From: Sphaerosporella brunnea
Lineage: Eukaryota; Ascomycota; Pezizomycetes; Pezizales; Pyronemataceae
Assembly: GCA_008704415.1 (NCBI GenBank)
Contig: VXIS01000013.1
Location: 186,001-250,000 of the forward strand
DNA: 64,000 nucleotides
Direction of reading: 5' to 3'
Shown one piece after another: positions 1 to 31,348 of this stretch. The notes beneath the pieces were generated by a model. That model did no database searches. It was given only the letters and a program-made list of their open reading frames with translations, and was not told the DNA's origin. Within the stretch, counting starts at the first letter, position 1. Every line of letters starts with the position of its first letter. A program made the position numbers and the translations under genes.

Positions 1-2342
1 TTAGCCTAGAGTCGCAGTGGAGCGCGTGGAGGGAGGATGTACCGGTTATCAACATTCCCCACTCACCTTCACCCCATACTCGATATGCCGTAAAATGAAG
101 ATCGCCAGGAAGGTTTCGTTCCGACCGCAACGCAAAGTTCTCTGCCATCGGGGCCTTTCGCAAAAACAATCAGCGGGATCCGAAAAAAGATCTCTGTAAA
201 ATCCGCAGGATCACCAACTTTTGCCAATCGGTTCCGCAGTTCCAGCCCGCATGCTAGCTTTCGCGGCGCTGAAAGTGTTGCTAGAGTAGCCATATTGTGT
301 GGGCGTTTGGTGGAGAAAAAGTCGTGGGGCCGCTGTTATTTTGAAGCCCCCGTACGATGAGCGAGCCCCACCCCGAGCTCCGCGACGGATAGACCCTAAC
401 ACCGATGCTGTTGGAAGTCCGCTGTTCCCGGGGATACCATAACCCGATCATCGGAAGGTCGAGTTCACGAGTGACTAGGAATGTTTCGGCGCTGCGCGAG
501 CTCCTGCTTGAGTGCTTGACAAGATGAGATATCTGTGGGGGGTTTCTTGAGAGTTACTAACCGCGGCTCACATGTTTGTTTGTGTTTTTTTCAAGGTGTT
601 TATCGCCGTTCTCGGTTTTGTGGCGCAGCGACTTCTCCACGGTGCCTTACAGGATGAATTTGGACTTTGACAAGCATTCCACAACAGCGCCAGTGGTGTC
701 ATTTCAGCATTCGAGTTCCAGAAACACAAGTCCAGACTATGACCAATCTTGAAAGATCGACCTTTTGGCAGCCTCAAAGGTGATTTGAAATCCCTTAGAA
801 CAGCGGAGCTCGCGCTAGCTCACGCAGGTAGTAATCTACAGCATACGATAAAGCGGAAACCAGGAAGAGGACAGAGAAACCCGGGTCCTCATCGGATACA
901 CATCGCTGCCCGAAGACAATATACTCCCATCGGCAATACAGAGGCCCTCGGTTCCCCAAACCTTCCCAGTCTACCACCGAATCTTTCGGCGAAACCCCCA
1001 TCCTGTCCGGTGCCATCTGATGGGCGCTTCCATACCTGCACATATCACCAACGCTGCGACAAACCCTCTCCAACAGCGCCAGCCAATCCTGAAAGCTCGG
1101 AGCGTCCGGACGCAGGATGGAGTCTACTTTGTGCAAAGGCGCCCCACGGGTCCCGTGAGTATCTCGACAGCGCCTGCCGCTACTAGACACTTAACTAGAG
1201 CTCACTACCTGTTATTTCTTTGTTGTTGTTGTGGTGCAGCAGCTTGCTTTCCGTTTTGACGCAAAACGAGGTGTCGACGCCTCTAAATCAAAAAACATCG
1301 CCATCGAGATTTAGTTCCCGAAGGCTGGAAACTCCACAACCAAGCGGAATTTCGACAATTGGAGACTTTCAAATGATAGAGTGAATGAAAAATAGATCCA
1401 TATCCGTGTTCTTTTAAAGGATGATTTTTCTTGGGTAATTAGTCCAAAGTCTGGGTTTCTAAACCCCGCCGTTTAATTTGCATACTGAACTGCATGTAAA
1501 CAGCGTTTTTTTGCTGAATTAGGGCGCGTTTGGAGGTTGACATCCTATGTTTCACCTCAGAACCAGGCAACATACATACATTAGAGGGATCCGGCGGGAT
1601 TTCTGTTTCTGCGGCTGGTGCTAACTAGCCATGAATACCAAGTAGTTACGAGGAGATGGTTCGTAGATTGACATACAAGTACTTCATGACTGCGTTGACT
1701 CCCAACCCGAACCGGATCCCTCTACTCGAGCCACATCCTGCCGTAACGGAGTTGAAAGCAACGGGCCCTGGGCCATGTGAAGATATTGGTGCCATGTGTG
1801 AAAATTTTGAGTTCTGGTTAGTATTTGAAACTGACTAAGTTATAAGCTTGTACTTACTTAGTGAAGGCCATGGTTCAAAGCTGATCGCACTATCTGGGAG
1901 CGAGCGCTAGATAAGGACAGTATTTTTCTTTTTGTACTGACGGTGGCTGGAAGAGGTCGCTCACCACATGATTTCTAATGTTTGTGTCCATGCGATTTCT
2001 TGCTGGAACCGCGTGAAAACAATCATTGTTTGTGGGCAGAACGTTGTAGATTGAATATATCGAAAGAGGGGAAGTGAGCGCTCGATACAAAATCCTTGTC
2101 CACACTACAGACTGGAAGGGACAAAAACGGGTGATATACCATGACAATACGCCGTCGGTGGTTTTTTTTGAGATAGCCGAGGGCGTGTGCGCAGGTATCT
2201 TAACCACGGTAGTCTCGGTCAAAAATTGATTAGACCAACAGGCCTTTACAAATGGCCATGCCGTCGATCCCTTTCAGCATCTTCAATCATGTTGAGCAAC
2301 TGCACAGGGGCTTCGGTGAGAGTTGTATAGGCCGCAGTATAC
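1..2342. other. gene-free stretch
   Basis: Only short overlapping reading frames occur on both strands, without recognisable domains or paired splice signals. A 13-bp inverted match (tagagggatccgg near 1582 and its complement near 1710) is the only local structure seen. Probably decayed intergenic DNA. Confidence 0.5.
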
Positions 2343-3467: not shown

Positions 3468-6400
3468 TTACTTCTTGCTCTTCTTCTCTTTTACAATAGC
3501 TTCCTTCCTTTTCTTCATAGCGTTGGTATGCGCCGTTGTCAATGTGGTCCAATCCGATACGCCACACGGCGAAGCGATACCGTGGTTCGTCTTGGCGGTC
3601 TGTGTAGAAAAATTAGCCTTTATCCCAGAGGAGCGTAAAAAGGAAATGAAGCAACTTACATCGTATTTTTGACTGCCCAGCATCGTTCCGCAGTTGGGAC
3701 ACCTCTTACCCCTTCTGTTGGCAAGATAAGTTTGCTCAGAATAGTTATCGGCGTCCTCTTCCGCATCCTCCTCCTCCTCTTCTTCATTATTAGGATCGAA
3801 GTCGTCACCATCCCCACCGTCATCGGTCGCTCCAGTGCCCTTCTTTCCTCCCTTACTTCCGTTTTTCTTCGTACCGCTCTGCTCGCCTCCATCGTCGTTG
3901 TCTCCCCCATTATCCGTGTCTCCTCCGTCTCCCTTGGGTCCGCCGCCATTGTCGCCCCCATAATCTCCTCCATCACCTCCATCGCCCCCATAATCACCTC
4001 CGTCACCTCCATCGCCCCCATCATCTCCTCCGTCACCTCCATCGCCTCCATCATCTCCTCCGTCACCTCCATCGCCCCCATCATCTCCTCCGTCACCTCC
4101 ATCGCCCCCATCATCTCCTCCGTCACCTCCATCGCCCCCATCATCTCCTCCGTCACCTCCATCGCCCCCATCATCTCCTCCGTCACCTCCATCGCCCCCA
4201 TCATCTCCTCCGTCACCTCCATCACCCCCATCATCTCCTCCGTCACCTTCATCGCCCCCGTCGCCTTCATCGTTCCCGTCGCCTTCATCGTCCCCGTCAC
4301 CTCCATCGTCCCCGGCATCGCCCGAAGCCGGCGGCGGCGGTAGGTTATTGTAATGCTTTTTAAGCAGCTTTTGGTTTTCCCAATCACGTGGTTTGGTTTT
4401 GCGTAAGTTGTTCCAGTCATTGACGCCGCAGTAAGTGCCGGGTCCGTGTTCATCTTTTGCTTTCTATAAAAAATTGAGTTACGATCAACATAAGAGGGAA
4501 GGGAAATATTTACGTTGAAGGCAATGCTTCGCATGTTGATGCCACACACCGGACAGTAGAGGAAACCTGCCTTCCTCACTGTTTTGTAAGTCGCCTCATT
4601 CAGATTCACTGTGTTGGCCGGCGGTTGTTTGGCTGGCGGTTGTTTGGCCGGCGGCTGTTTTTTGGCCGGCGGCTGTTTTTTGGCCGGCGGCTGTTTTTTG
4701 GCCGGCGGCTGTTGTTTGGCCGGCGGCTGTTGTTTGGTCGGCGGCTGTTGTTTGGCCGGCGGCTGTTGTTTGGCCGGCGGCTGTTGTTCGGCCGGCGGCT
4801 GTTGTTCGGCCGGCGGCTGTTGTTTCGCCGGCGGCTGTTGTTTGGCCGGTGTTCCCGGCGTGTCCGCCGCTGACTTTTTACCCTTTCCTTTGCCCGGCCC
4901 TGGATCTGGATGATCGGGATCACTCTCATCACTCGAGCCCTCGGCGCCCTTTTTGCCTGTACCTGGCCCCTTACCCTTGCCCTCGGCGCCCTTTTTGCCT
5001 GTACCTGGCCCCTTACCCTTGCCCTCGGCGCCCTTTTTGCCTGTACCTGGCCCCTTACCCTTACCCTTGTCGCCTGACTGAGTGGTAGTCTGCGGTAAGA
5101 TTGGCGCACTAATGATTATCTCATCATTGAAGATGACTGCATCACGAATTGCGACGCGCTCCATTTCACCACTGGTCTCCAAATTTTCAGCCATCCGCGC
5201 TCTCCTTCTCCTCCGTGCTTCTCCAGATGGATCGACATCGCCGTCGCTGTCATCGTCTGATGATGAATATGGATAAATTGGCGGTGCCTGTCGGGGGCTT
5301 AACGGTCCTGTGTACCCTGGATCACGCCGTAGCCTCTTTCGCGGCCGAACACCAATAGGGAGACGTAGAGCCACCTGCCAGTCAATGGAGTCATCCGAAT
5401 CATCTGGATTCTCATCCCACTCAGGCTCGAGTTGCTTTACCTTACTAGCAATCCTGGAACGGCGGTTCGTAAGTGCAGTATTATATTGTTTTGCTGTGGC
5501 GTCCAAGCTAGCCGTATCATTTTGTATGTTCCAGTCGAACACAGCAGGCGCCTCCGGTTCCATCTGGGTGCTGCCATCCCTGCCACCGCCAGCCGAGGCG
5601 ACCAAAAGCTCAATCTGCGTTTCCGTGGTTGGCCTATTCTGGCTCGGTTGTGGTGGCGTCGGAGCAGCGGTTGATTTTTTGGGAGGAGCCGGCGCACTCT
5701 TGACAGGAGCTTCGGGGTTGAGGGGCGCGGTGTTCTTCGTCGCTTGCTCGCCTTCTTGGTCGCCGGGCGGTGAAGGGGGGCGCTCCTCCATGCTGTCTTC
5801 GTAGTCCGCTCTGAGGGGGCCATCCCATTTTGTTTTCATTGGCCCCCCAAACTGAGTGAGAGCTAATACGGCCTTATTTGGATATACGTAGCCGCCCAAG
5901 TTTCTCCAATGAGTCAAACCAGCCTCTTCGCCACAGGTGGAGAAATATCGCGCGGCTGCGATATCTACAAAACTATTAGCGAAAATTGGCCGGTATTTCA
6001 ATTCTTCGGTCTCTTTGAAAGCGCTTGGATTCTCCTTGTGAGTACTTAAAAACCCCCAGAAAGTATCCCCGATCTGGAAGAAACCTTTGTTTGGCAGGTG
6101 GATCTGTCGAAATGGGGCCTCCCTGTCGGTGACCTCGAATGTCTGCCGAAGACTGAAACCGTTGAACTCGGCGATTGTGTCAATGTCGTGGGTCTCCGAA
6201 TTCACGGCTGCAAAGAAACCAGTCCCAGCGTGACCAACCAAGACCTTCTCGTTCAATTGGGCAAGAGAACGAGCTCGCTGTTGGGTCATTACTTCTACAT
6301 TCGCAGTATCGTCGCTGGCTTGCGGCACGTATCTAATATTCCAGTCAGATACCCGGGAAGTTGATAAGGTGAATAGTAAGGAAAAGTAGACTTACGGCTG

Positions 6401-25359: not shown

Positions 25360-28300
25360 TCAAGAGGGCGCGCAGAACTGTTCCTGCATTTATTATGAGT
25401 CGGATTCAGCCCTATAGTGAGATATTAGGGGAGGAAACTATTTTACTTACAAGCTGCACCGTAATTGAACGGTAATTCAAGCTAGCTGTTAGCAATAGCG
25501 TCAATAAGCGAACGACCAACCAGTTCACTGACAAACTGCGATGGGCGGTAGGACAAAGGTTAGAATACTGTCAACCGGAAGTGAGGGTGGAAGCCTGCTC
25601 CACTAACTTCCTGGCAGCCCAAAATCAGTCCGAAGCCAGCAGTTTGCTAGGAGTATTTATGAAAAATAGCATACAAACTGCAACAACGAACAGATACCGG
25701 ATCAGCCATGTTGTCTCGGTGGAGTGATGGATCCCTATAACTTACTGGCTGTGACACCGAACGACCACCGGATCAGCCATGTTGTCTCTGTTGAGTGATG
25801 GATCCCTATCACTTACTATCTGCAATACCGGTCGAACGAGCACCGGATCAGCCATGTTGTCTCGGTGGAGTGATGAATCCCTATCACTTACATGCTGTGA
25901 CACCGAACGAGCACCGGATCAGCCATGTTGTCTCGGTGGAGTGATGGATCCCTATCACTTACTGGCTGTGACATCGAACGAGCACCGGATCAGCCATGTT
26001 GTCTCGGTTGAGTGATGGATCCCTATCACTTACTGCCTGCAATACAAATTGAACGAGCACCGGATCAGCCATGTTGTCTCGGTTGAGTGATGGATCCCTA
26101 TCACTTACTGGCTGTGACACCGAACGAGCACCGGATCAGCCATGTTGTCTCGGTTGAGTGATGGATCCCTATCACTTACTGTCTGCAATACCAATCGAAC
26201 GAGCACCGGATCAGCCATGTTGTCTCGGTTGAGTGATGGATCCCTATCACTTACCCACTAATACCGAACGGATACCTGATCAGCCATGTTGTCTCGGTGG
26301 AGTGATGGATCCCTATCACTTACTTCCTGTGACACCGAACGAGCACCGGATCAGCCATGTTGTCTCGGTGGAGTGATGGATCCCTATCACTTACTGCCTG
26401 CAATACAAATTGAACGAGCACCGGATCAGCCATGTTGTCTCGGTTGAGTGATGGATCCCTATCACTTACTGGCTGTGACACCGAACGAGCACCGGATCAG
26501 CCATGTTGTCTCGGTTGAGTGATGGATCCCTATCACTTACTGTCTGCAATACCAATCGAACGAGCACCGGATCAGCCAGGTTGTCTCGGTGGAGTGATGG
26601 ATCCCTATCACTTACCCACTAATACCGAACGAGCACCGGATCAGCCATGTTGTCTCGGTTGAGTGACGGATCCCTATCACTTACTGTCTGCAATACCGAT
26701 CGAACGAGCACCGGATCAGCCATGTTGTCTCGGTGGAGTGATGTATCCCTATCACTTACTGGCTGTGACACCGAACGAGCACCGGATCAGCCATGTTGTC
26801 TCGGTGGAGTGATGGATCCCTATCACTTACCCACTAATACCGAACGAGCACCGGATCAGCGATGTTGTCTCGATTCAGTGATGGATCCCTATCACTTACT
26901 GGCTGCGACACCAATCGAACGAGCACCGGATCAGCCATGTTGTCTCGGTTGAGTGATGGATCCCTATCACTTACTCTCTGCAATACCGATCGAACGACGA
27001 CCACCGGATCAGCCATGTTGTCTCGGTGGAGTGATGGATCCCTATCACTTACTATCTGCAATACCGATTGAACGAGCACCGGATCAGCCATGTTGTCTCG
27101 GTGGAGTGATGGATCCCTATCACTTACTAGCTGTGACACCGGATCAGCCATGTTGTTTCGGTTGAGTGATGGATCCATATCACTTACTAGCTGTGACACC
27201 GGATCAGCCATGTTGTCTCGGTTGAGTGGTGGGTCCCTATCACTTACTACCTGCAATACCAATCGAACGAGCACCGGATCAGCCATGTTGTCTCGGTGGA
27301 GTGATGGATCCCTATCACTTACCCACTAATACCGAACGGATACCGGATCAGCCATGTTGTCTCGGTTGAGTGATGGATCCCTATCACTTACCCACTAAAA
27401 CACCCAGGAAGCGCCGTATCAGCCATGTCTTCGATTAGTGATGTATTGCAATCTGGTCCAATTACTTCCTGCAACGCCGAACGCCCCCCGGATTAGCCAT
27501 TTCTCGAGCGGTTGGGCTGCTCGGTATCTGGGTCATTTACTCTCTGCAACATGAACGACCAACGGGTCAGCCCTATCTTCGGCACGTGGGAGATTGCGTT
27601 ACTTATCACTCACATACTGTACAGGCAAACCAAAAAGTGTTAGTGATGAACAGTTCAGCATGGCCCAGCTACCCACTTACTTGCTGCAATGAGGAAGGAG
27701 TAAGTGTCCTATTGTCAGCTATTTCCTCGACAAATGACGTGTTGTTTGGTTTTCTTACTTCCTGCAGGGCAAAATGAGCTTAATATTGCTGATAACATTG
27801 GAGTGATACCACCGTTCACCTACTCTCTGAAGTTCGAATCGCCCGAAGTCAGCTGAATCAGTAGCATGGGAGAGGCGCCAATGCGGGGCAATTACAGTCT
27901 GTAGCAGAACAAATCGAATCAGCCATGACATTGGAAAGGAACGAATATAACATCCGCTTACTTTCTGCAGCGCGATATGATTAGGTCATATGCCACAAGT
28001 TCAGTTATGAGAAGCGACGTGATTTCACTCACTTTCTGCAAGTGTGTATATTCTCGTTTATCGTAATATACATTGGCTCCATTATCGAGTAGCATCTTGA
28101 CGATTTTATGGTGCTTTCGAGTGGCTGCCGCCATCAACGCATTCTGATATCTACCACCCTGAGAGTTGGCATTAGCCTTGTTGTCTAACAGCAATCGTAC
28201 CACCGCCTCATGTCCGCCGAAGGAAGCTGCCTGCAGGGCACTGCCAAAATCGCTATTGGTGATATCGACATCGACATTGATCCCGGACTGTATAAGCATC

Positions 28301-31300
28301 TCGACGCAACTCAGAAAGCCATATTCCGAAGCGGTATGCAAAAAGGTTGTTCGCCTATTGTGAAAGTTCATCCAGCAATCCAAGGCGTGGCCCTCGGGTT
28401 CCTGAAAGTATTTCACGAGTTGCCCTTGCTGTACACCATTAGATTCCGCTTTTTTGGCATGTGTGAACACAAATTTGGCTGCGTAATCCACCAACGGATA
28501 AGGGGTCAGGATGGATTCCGACCGAGTAAAATAGCTGTAAAGTTGCGCTTGAAAATCCGCCGTGCGTAGCTCTTGAATGTTGAGGTAGTTACTGCAGGAT
28601 CTTGCAAGTCGATCATGAGCGCGGCCGATAGCTGTCTCGCCAAGGGAAGGGTCGAGTATTTCGAAACCATTGCGTTGTTGCAGGAAATCCCTCACCGACT
28701 CGTGAATGAACTGAACGATGGTTCTTGTAGCGCTCCCGGTTCCGACAGTCTTGACTTCAACTAAACCGCGAGACAAACTCCGTGCCAATTTTTCCATCTG
28801 CTTGTCTTCCTTCACGAAACGATCCGACCTTTGCCACTCCTGCTGGGATGCGTTTGGCGCCTCATCGGATGCCAGTGCGAAACGTAACTCGGTCAAAGTC
28901 AGAGGGCGCTCTGCAAATAGAACCCATTGCATTATTTGTAATGCTCTGGGCCGATCGTCGGGGCGGATTGTTTGGAACGACTGCTTGAACAGCTCTTCCA
29001 ACTCCGGCGGAGTATCTTGCAGTATCTGTTTCATTCGCTCCATTGACTCGCCATCATCTTGGGCCTTGACTAGCTCATTAACAACAAGCACAACCCACAG
29101 AAACACACCGGAAGCATTCCGAAGTATAGTGTCCACAAGCGCAAGGCTTGACTCATCGGAAACCGCGAGAGATAGTGTGGTTCGGACATATTTCGAGATA
29201 TCGGACTCGTTGCAGTCTTCGACCCGAATCTCGGGACAGTCCTTGAGGTGTATATTTGGATAGTGGCGACTTGACAAGCATATGCTGAGGTTGGCTCCAT
29301 TCTCAACCGCGGACAAGGCTGAAGCCCCGAGAAACCACACGAATCTCCGTGCACTCGGTTCATCGCACTCGTCAAGTCCATCGACAAACACAACTATCGG
29401 ATGTGCTTGTGGTCGCGTGATAGCGGTGCGAAAGAAGCCTTCGAGCTCAGTTTGGTGCCACTCCCAACCTTTTTGATGCAATGTCTGCTTTTCTTGGAAC
29501 TTAGGCAGAAATTCGGAGAGTAAAGGACGAACTTGCTGCAAGAGCTGGTGAAAAAGTGAGCGAAAGAGACCTAGAAGCGTTTTCTCTAAATGACCGCCAC
29601 GAGCATTAAAAAAGAATCCGAGGATTGCGACAGGAGTGCCGGACGCGCGTTGCCTGTAATGTTCGAGGGCATGCTTCATTAAGGTGGATTTCCCAGCGCC
29701 GGGCTTCCCTTTGATCCAGATCAATCCCCGGTGTTCGTTTAGCCTCTCTCTGTCGAGCCATTCGCGATAATTGGGATGCTGAAGTAGCCACGCACAAGTG
29801 TCATCGTGGCCACCTTTAATGGCTTGTTGACGGGAATCGATCTCCGGAAATGATAGCGATCGAATGCACTCTTATATAAAGTCAGTCAAATCTGGGATAC
29901 TGAAGGCGAGATTGTTGTCTGACCTTGCTCGTCCTTCTGAAAAACCTTGGGCTGTCCTCCCCTTGCGGCCGCGGGACTTGCCAAACGGGTTTCAAGAATA
30001 CCAGGAGCTTTTGCAACATAGTCGGATAGTCTGTCCCGGACCGGAATGTAGTTTGGATCGGCTTTGTCGGCAAATTTCACCATATTTGAGTGGTCGGCAT
30101 CGATCGGTACTTGCATATGAATGGCCTCTGTGGGCAGAGCAAACGTAGCTGACTCCTGTGACACCACTCGTATCATCCCACCACTTCTTTCCCAGCTCCC
30201 GTCCTCCCGTACCTTCAAAGTCAGTATATATATACCACGGTGGTGCAGTAAGGGCATACAATCACAGCTTTAGTGTCTCTCAATTCGTAAAAAGACGTGA
30301 TTTGGCAATCCTTGTGTGTAAACCCTTGGAGGAAATGTTGATAGGCATGCCTCAAGAGTTCCGATCCTTCCCTCAGGTCATTGACTAAGTGGGCATTCGT
30401 CTGGTGCATTACCAAAGTCCTCAAATTCTCGACATTGAGTCCTCGGTTAGGCACTCCAAAGAAAAAGAGACCTGTGCACGAGCTCAGGATGGCTTGGTCA
30501 TTTTCGGAGCCTCCCGACATGGATGCGTCCGCAAGCGCCTATAATGGATAAAAATCGACACTGGCTACCGATAAACACCAAGAGACGAATAATGTAGCTT
30601 ACCTGTTTGATGATCAAACCACCGAAGCTGTGGCCGATGAAGATTATTGGGCGATTCCTTTCCTGCAGCTACCCATTAACTACGCGCGTCCTCATGAAAG
30701 GTACCTATTCATACCTTTTCGCCGGTGCGCTCACTGTTCACACCGTCCAAAAACGCTCTCGAAAATTGCTGAATAGACCCGGTGGATGTGCTGTCTCTCA
30801 GAGTCGAATCATAGCCAAACGTGAGAATCCTAACATTGGGCAGGTCTGATGGCAAAAAATCCCTCAGCCACATCTGGTTTTGTGTGCGGGACTTCCACGA
30901 CCCATATGCGTGCCCAGCAAGGCCGGTGACAGCAATAATGCTAAACATCGATCAGCTCTTCTCGGAGAATGACAGTCAAAAAGGTTGCTCCTTACTCTAC
31001 TGTAGGATTCTCTGCGCTGTATAATGGCGTCATACCGAGAAAATCGCAGTCGACTACTAAGTCGACACTCATGTCCTCGTAGCGCAGGTAGGACCTGTCG
31101 CCTCGTGCGCATTTTGACAAAGCTGGGGGCTCCCGGTGTGTGAAAGTCACCGTCGCAACTTTGAAGCCCCGAGAAGGAGCGAGTGAGAGTATGAAGTCGC
31201 CCCCGACTAGTCCCCTCAAAAAGGTCCTGAACTCATCTTCCGTAACACGGAGAGGGATGAGAGAGACTCGAAGTGTTCGACCTCGACCCAGGAAAGTCAC

Positions 31301-31348
31301 CTCAGGCCCCGGGTGGGGTGAAACGCTTTTCCGCCGTAGCTGTGGCAT
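25360..31348 (-). CDS. STAND/NLR: sesB-like hydrolase - NACHT - ankyrin, with micro-exon 3' array
   Basis: Large exons: 31348-30996, 30940-30715, 30662-30603, 30538-30260, 30212-29924, 29870-28033. They sum to exactly 1015 codons. The N-terminal alpha/beta hydrolase domain has nucleophile motif GHSFGG (Ser ~205) and a likely catalytic His in DADHSNM (~347). The linker is ECIRSLSFPEID. NACHT shows Walker A GKPGAGKST (~457-465) and Walker B VVFVDGLDEC. At least three ankyrin repeats follow from ~900, the last ending HLQK. The coding exon then meets GTGAGT, and about 36 candidate 3-nt exons follow (see repeat 25451-28032). A terminal exon begins at 25383 (acceptor atgcag) with seven codons and TGA at 25360-25362 in phase 0, giving ~1058 residues if all micro-exons are used. 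Two junctions (30212, 29870) use AAG acceptors. A further GTAAGC...CTAAC...TTAG intron at 25251-25312 suggests an alternative longer 3' end. Fungal NLRs of this architecture act in non-self recognition and incompatibility. Confidence 0.85.
25451..28032 (-). repeat. tandem array of intron units with variable 3-nt micro-exons
   Basis: About 36 units of 60-82 bp (mostly 71 or 75) read, on the minus strand, acceptor (CAG or TAG), three bases, then donor (usually GTAAGT). Leftmost position and triplet in transcript order: 27962 AAA, 27896 ACT, 27824 AGA, 27759 GAA, 27681 CAA, 27614 TAT, 27541 AGA, 27466 GAA, 27392 TGG, 27323 TGG, 27248 GTA, 27188 CTA, 27128 CTA, 27053 ATA, 26975 AGA, 26900 CCA, 26831 TGG, 26760 CCA, 26685 ACA, 26616 TGG, 26541 ACA, 26470 CCA, 26395 GCA, 26334 GAA, 26255 TGG, 26180 ACA, 26109 CCA, 26034 GCA, 25963 CCA, 25892 CAT, 25817 ATA, 25746 CCA, 25675 TTT, 25608 GAA, 25533 TTT, 25451 CTT. 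None is a stop codon. Units between 25.70 and 27.40 kb are nearly identical outside the triplet and the stretch before the acceptor. Flanking units are diverged but keep the splice signature; the weakest donors are GTCAGT (25533) and GTATGC (25675). CTGAT before 'ccggtg' is a plausible branch point. Confidence 0.85.

Follow-up and report, generated by a model that had tools for sequence, protein, structure and literature searches.

The window, the whole stretch of 64,000 nucleotides of Sphaerosporella brunnea DNA analysed here, carries on its minus strand a predicted receptor gene that runs at its 3' end into a long array of candidate three-base exons. The receptor part of the gene is made up of:

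30996..31348, minus strand: exon 1 of the NLR gene, with the start codon at 31348 (spliced fit of annotated protein P0001, FN846DRAFT_929114)
30940-30715, 30662-30603, 30538-30260 and 30212-29924, minus strand: exons 2-5, with ordinary introns (P0001 fit)
28033..29870, minus strand: exon 6, large, encoding an NPHP3_N/NACHT NTPase, DUF7791 and ankyrin repeats (Pfam)

The five introns between exons 1-6 are 47-64 nt long in the spliced fit of P0001, and exon 6 ends in REYTHLQK followed by a GTGAGT donor in phase 0. What kind of protein is encoded here? In Pfam the NTPase region matches PF24883 with 118.2 bits (cut-off 24.8) and NACHT PF05729 with 27.5 bits (cut-off 26.7), and the C-terminal repeats match Ank_2 in two stretches (83.3 bits). 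The N-terminal region, exons 2-5, has a weak alpha/beta hydrolase likeness, PF12697 (Abhydrolase_6) scoring 21.1 bits, under its cut-off of 26.3. By these predicted domains, a NACHT-type NTPase and ankyrins, the gene is a fungal NLR (STAND). Elsewhere in the window, at 3952-5074, tandem repeats of 30, 18 and 42 bp lie inside or beside long open frames.

Downstream of the ankyrin exon the gene continues as follows:

27395..28032, minus strand: 5' diverged zone, eight micro-exons between unlike introns with splice signals kept (pattern scan and shuffles)
5' zone triplets by first base, minus strand: 27964 AAA, 27898 ACT, 27826 AGA, 27761 GAA, 27683 CAA, 27616 TAT, 27543 AGA, 27468 GAA
25746..27394, minus strand: homogenised core, 24 micro-exons between near-identical introns (tandem-repeat and pattern scans)
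Core triplets 1-12, minus strand: TGG TGG GTA CTA CTA ATA AGA CCA TGG CCA ACA TGG
Core triplets 13-24, minus strand: ACA CCA GCA GAA TGG ACA CCA GCA CCA CAT ATA CCA
25451..25745, minus strand: 3' diverged zone, four micro-exons, 25677 TTT, 25610 GAA, 25535 TTT and 25453 CTT (shuffles)
25384..25450, minus strand: last intron, 67 nt, GTAAGT to GCAG, mostly inside a match (25464-25393, E 0.00065) of the C105-trained model described below
25360..25383, minus strand: terminal exon GAACAGTTCTGCGCGCCCTCTTGA, read as GAA CAG TTC TGC GCG CCC TCT TGA, that is EQFCAPS-stop, in phase 0

A scan for an acceptor, three bases and a donor gave 37 consecutive matches on the minus strand, the first at 28035 and the last at 25453, with 60-82 bp from one to the next. 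The first match, AAA (28035-28033), has no intron ahead of it and is therefore the end of the ankyrin exon, which leaves 36 candidate micro-exons at 27964..25451, each a single codon. The first-pass annotation had described this same order (acceptor CAG or TAG, any three bases, donor GTAAGT or a variant), recurring about 36 times at this spacing directly 3' of the ankyrin region, and the scan confirms it. The array also fills the extent given there, 25451..28032; what had been overlooked is the terminal exon at 25383-25360. With that exon the array is in frame at both ends, with the ankyrin exon 5' and with EQFCAPS-stop 3', and all 36 triplets lie in phase 0 with no stop codon among them. The earlier claim that any set could be joined without a frameshift holds as well: 20000 of 20000 random triplet subsets were in frame, and the sole stop in each was that of the terminal exon. 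The predicted protein has 1058 residues with all 36 triplets and 1022 with none. The absence of stops is weak evidence by itself, as the core units are copies of one another; the core is a tandem repeat (25696-27391) with a period of about 75.

Is the window gene the only one of its kind in the genome? NLR genes were gathered with the window's large exon and by a PF24883 family search (at least 61 matches, a duplicated contig included). Among the loci from both searches, chains of three or more units occur only at three array genes and on the duplicate contig: the window gene with 36 units, a gene on C105 with 29 and one on C65 with 56, with no stop in 121 triplets. In the stretches that follow 12 further NACHT or ankyrin genes no chain was longer than 2; three array genes is a lower bound, downstream regions having been checked for part of the NLR genes. 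The C105 array forms two runs of 11 and 18 units with 593 bp between them, and its first donor is a poor GTTAAC. Inside this array, at C105:64059-64559 on the reverse strand, lies a repeat of which 437 of 501 bases recur at 97-98% identity in at least 39 other places, 40 of 368 candidates having been scored. Part of a mobile element has probably landed in one intron here; the corresponding stretch of the duplicate contig, C419, lacks the repeat. At 26,675 bp, C419 is the counterpart of the right end of C105: identity is 100, 100 and 99.9% in the three locus pairs compared. It breaks off within the array, and there its units stand in another order than those of C105. The difference may be a variant or an assembly artefact; we do not claim C105 and C419 as two alleles, since C419 stops inside the array and one of the two may be an assembly variant.

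Are the three arrays related? By DNA search the core units of each array are found solely at their own locus, those of C105 also on C419. A further comparison used models built on an alignment of two-unit stretches, for which 42 rows were prepared, 41 aligned and 28 kept; the 13 dropped rows were those badly shifted or gapped by MAFFT and a few neighbours, so the model R1, built on all three arrays, leans to well-aligned units. Among 51 sources R1 matched only the three arrays, on which it had been trained. The model R2 was built on the 13 C105 rows among the 28 and searched against 32 sources (178 kb). It gave 23 matches at E<=1, 9 of them at E<0.01, and all 23 are minus-strand matches to the window array, with its first and last introns among them. 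A model trained on C105 alone thus finds the window array, which shows that these two arrays are related. R2 had no match in the C65 array among the 32 sources and, as far as this test goes, the C65 array would resemble the others in plan only. At full inclusion the C65 array is stop-free in phases 0, 1 and 2; it is probably phase 2, preferred solely for the recurring GTATGTTTCC donor. The C65 gene also has a second partial NPHP3_N match upstream (C65:86941-88790, in a 265-aa frame) and a frame change between its NACHT and ankyrin frames, and its gene model is provisional.

The donors of the window units read GTAAGT in 26 of 36 cases, their acceptors are CAG (31) or TAG (5), and the 35 introns between the micro-exons measure 57-79 nt. 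A branch-like CTRAY motif precedes 35 of the 36 units, 9-45 nt from the acceptor; such a motif also stands before 21 of 29 units in C105 and 52 of 56 in C65. In the eight 5' and four 3' units of the end zones the intron bodies are unlike, yet donor, branch-like motif, acceptor and an exon of exactly 3 nt are kept. Could such chains arise by chance? Dinucleotide shuffles of the window zones never reached the chain of 8 (5' zone) or the chain of 4 (3' zone), with 0 of 2000 in each case. The same result, 0 of 2000, was obtained for both C105 zones (8 and 8) and for the C65 3' zone (6), while the chain of 5 in the C65 5' zone was reached in 1 of 2000. Elsewhere in the 64-kb window the longest chain is 1 with the strict pattern and 2 with the relaxed one.

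The core raises a different question: what is being kept the same, and what is allowed to vary? Over 68 aligned intron columns of the 24 core units, the mean pairwise diversity is 0.08 (maximum 0.57), against 0.76, 0.71 and 0.41 at triplet positions 1, 2 and 3, so that positions 1 and 2 exceed every one of the 68 intron columns. The first-pass annotation had singled out about 24 central units with nearly invariant introns and varying triplets, and these counts bear it out. The C65 core repeats the picture (introns 0.08, maximum 0.53; triplet positions 0.33, 0.67 and 0.69), and the 10 C105 units show a weaker excess, with triplet diversity of 0.38, 0.51 and 0.53 and 3 of 69 intron columns equal to the most diverse triplet position. 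Changes were also counted on trees built from the introns only. In the window 8, 11 and 4 steps fell on the triplet positions, whereas the 68 intron columns averaged 1.06 and had at most 7 (6 columns with 4 or more). The corresponding figures are 6, 14 and 14 in C65, where 76 intron columns averaged 1.89 and had at most 10 (11 columns with 6 or more), and 3, 4 and 5 in C105, where the intron columns averaged 0.75 and had at most 3. Counted as words, the window triplet site holds 10 distinct three-base words and each of 62 intron windows at most 4. The sameness of the core introns reflects recent copying, because intron bodies change freely in the diverged zones, and the excess diversity of the triplets would speak for diversifying selection, or for directed change, at those bases. 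In the window array the five units with a TAG acceptor are exactly the five TGG units. Triplet class thus depends in part on the type of intron, and there are fewer independent changes than units. The least variable triplet position is the third in the window, where phase 0 makes it the wobble base, and the first in C65. If C65 is phase 2 its first base is the wobble base too, which would favour selection on residues over a splicing constraint, one of the two phases being uncertain.

How does the public record deal with this gene? P0001, a hypothetical protein of S. brunnea, is 100% identical over the 71% of the large-exon query that it covers, uses a weak GTCGGA donor (28522) to exit the large exon and ends short of the ankyrins; the annotated intron 28522-28429 that starts at this donor is probably a gene-caller artefact. 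A second model, P0121, starts in the ankyrins. Judged from its protein letters, its junction runs from the LQK donor to the acceptor that precedes 27468, after which the frame stays open as far as a stop in the core; the model thus shows no use of micro-exons. Together the two models split the gene in two, with the tail missing. A protein query with the joined tail, for which candidates were limited to proteins 0.55-1.75 times its length, found 25 proteins and no transcript; the sole S. brunnea protein was the annotated model P0121 and the others were at most 57% identical. The genome is a PacBio assembly, and public RNA-seq exists under SRP214822 and SRP215074 (PMC6908789). The C-terminus of P0004, LEFCAPN, was considered as a homologue of the window's EQFCAPS and set aside: the match was picked post hoc among 120 proteins and the residues before it look like intron read-through. 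The resemblance may be chance or a shared terminal exon.

Relatives of these proteins lead to the truffles. Among the best 120 of 1549 matches of the C105 protein are close relatives in Wilcoxina, Trichophaea and Tricharina, and similarly named NACHT-ANK records from Tuber magnatum and Choiromyces venosus. With P0234 of T. melanosporum ('NACHT-ANK domain protein transcript variant 5') the C105 protein shares 43% identity over 575 columns. The window protein is 23% identical to P0234 over 647 aligned columns (E 1e-35), which places the window gene in a more distant clade than its C105 sister. In these alignments REYTHLQ of the window stands opposite RDYSVLY of P0234, and the exon ends LQK (window) and NLLQ (C105) line up with VLY of P0234, which is known from protein letters alone and has a tail of 30 residues past the point where the window and C105 exons end. 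A motif for this exon end, followed by at most 60 residues, occurs in 22 of 265 compared proteins; 17 of the 22 continue with V and then S, N or K, 4 with T, and one is P0234, counts that describe and do not test, since the motif was composed after the tails had been inspected. V followed by S, N or K is what a translated GT donor would give, and one of the 17 is the S. brunnea C105 gene. Two proteins, P0009 and P0158, judging by their letters, look like read-through of a first intron into a micro-exon-like K and T.

The literature on T. melanosporum fits this kinship. In the passages that mention it, four papers describe an expanded NACHT-ANK family with alternatively spliced codon-sized exons (PMC4986451, PMC9815663, PMC3689799, PMC10197012) and cite Iotti et al. 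2012 (Fungal Biol 116:261) as the source, which bears out what the first-pass annotation had said of 3-bp exons in truffle NACHT-ankyrin genes. Its further reading, that this locus would be another instance, is supported: an array gene of the same genome is 43% identical to the Tuber protein. Between loci of this genome some of the units are related, the C105 model finding the window array. Judged by sequence, the window gene is a new predicted member, in the Pyronemataceae (Pezizales), of the Tuber-type microexon NLRs. In the open-access literature, as far as its accessible passages go, we found no report of microexon arrays on NLRs outside Tuber, although one may exist elsewhere; the passages seen of the Pyronema genome paper mention NACHT once and no microexon.

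What would such an array do? We think it likely that it is a C-terminal diversification device of a fungal NLR, in which codon-exons are spliced into tails. Fungal introns are recognised across the intron, and a 3-nt exon is too small for both splice complexes at once, so removal of one intron after another from the 5' end is to be expected. Each removal would add one codon to the upstream exon and bring that codon against the next donor, a ratchet that would resemble recursive splicing while leaving three bases per step. A forward skip to any later acceptor would preserve the frame, so one gene could yield tails of 7 to 43 residues, terminal exon counted, and the near-identical core introns would make the choices of acceptor nearly equal. 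Over evolutionary time, tandem duplication would homogenise the introns while the triplets diversify, with mutation as a second source of new tails. A probable role of the tail is to make up or adjust the recognition end of the receptor, as suggested by the general role proposed for fungal NLRs and by the diversity of the triplets. For the splicing-based device put forward in the first-pass annotation, the array, the common phase and the freedom from stops hold; joining of triplets into mRNA, splicing order and variable inclusion are inferred from the anatomy and the Tuber reports. A bolder reading, which we rate as less likely than not, is a repertoire generator older than the truffles, in which duplicated uniform introns, selected codons and inclusion made stochastic by near-equal splice sites would give many NLR tails per hypha.

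The leading rival to the diversification device starts from the splice sites. With strong, uniform donors and near-ordinary introns (57-79 against 47-64 nt), nearest-neighbour splicing could include every 3-nt exon. In that case each molecule would have an identical insert of 36 residues, and variety would exist only between genes, strains and species through array turnover; the excess diversity of the triplets needs no alternative splicing. Such constitutive inclusion is a possibility that we rate well below variable inclusion: the Tuber papers, in the passages seen, report alternative splicing, the Tuber records are named as transcript variants, and very small exons are said to be prone to skipping (introduction of PMC4674806). 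Could the array instead act on the RNA, its many strong sites slowing or regulating the expression of a costly cell-death receptor, with the residues mattering little? Near-identical consensus sites would presumably load the transcript with spliceosomes, and retention or partial splicing can yield truncated forms such as the P0121 model, but under this reading there is no reason to expect the greatest diversity at the codon positions, or a set of triplets that without exception are sense codons in phase, and we regard it as unlikely. Least probable, and set aside as the main reading because of the signals kept in diverged units, is a minisatellite grown from a gene-end intron, a non-functional array that is spliced out whole or stays in the 3' UTR: the tandem core and the lack of a transcript from the joined-tail protein query would suit it, but against it stand the signals and 3-nt spacing of the diverged units, the three genes with arrays whose core units, in DNA searches, lie only at their own locus (or C419), the triplet positions 1 and 2 that vary above every intron column of the window core, and the in-frame terminal exon that closes the array.

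If the diversification device is real, why does it matter? Within the accessible parts of the open-access literature, Tuber is the only source of reports of codon-by-codon exons on an innate immune receptor, and little work has built on them. That a fungus of the Pyronemataceae has three NLR arrays, with related intron units in two, suggests an origin of the device before the lineages of this fungus and the truffles parted. S. brunnea grows on ordinary agar, which together with the public RNA-seq makes the device accessible. Uniform introns beside diverse codons allow a direct test for selection acting on an immune repertoire made by splicing, and the arrays would show how a spliceosome copes with 3-nt exons that follow one another by the dozen. 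The device escapes gene finders, which cut the window gene in two.

The nearest known system is that of the Tuber nank genes, described in the passages available as NLRs with NACHT and ankyrin domains and dozens of 3-bp exons in the C-terminal part, and the window gene is, by sequence, alike in this. It differs in coming from the Pyronemataceae, in its weakly hydrolase-like N-terminus and in its distance (23% to P0234). Homogenised introns with diversified triplets are seen in the window and go unmentioned in those passages for Tuber, whose exon layout is taken from papers and not from DNA; conversely, alternative splicing is reported for Tuber, whereas the window array is known from DNA alone.

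Outside the fungi, the micro-exon genes of Schistosoma contain numerous very small in-frame exons, and protein variants arise when some of these are skipped. Their micro-exons are mostly longer than one codon and their products are secreted parasite proteins with no NLR known among them, so the likeness to the window gene lies in the tiny, skippable in-frame exons and the difference in exon length and class of product. In the open-access literature we found nothing that links these genes with Tuber. Single exons of the size proposed here can be spliced, as the passages on a 3-bp micro-exon in Drosophila homothorax (PMC7392893) and a 1-nt exon in Arabidopsis APC11 (PMC4674806) indicate; those stand alone, whereas the window array has dozens. 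Fungal NLRs with hypervariable C-terminal repeats, as far as described in the passages seen of PMC9815663, resemble the window gene in combining homogenised units with a small number of hypervariable codons at the end proposed for recognition. In those NLRs the variable codons belong to the protein repeats themselves, whereas in the window each codon would be an exon of its own and the homogenised part is the intron.
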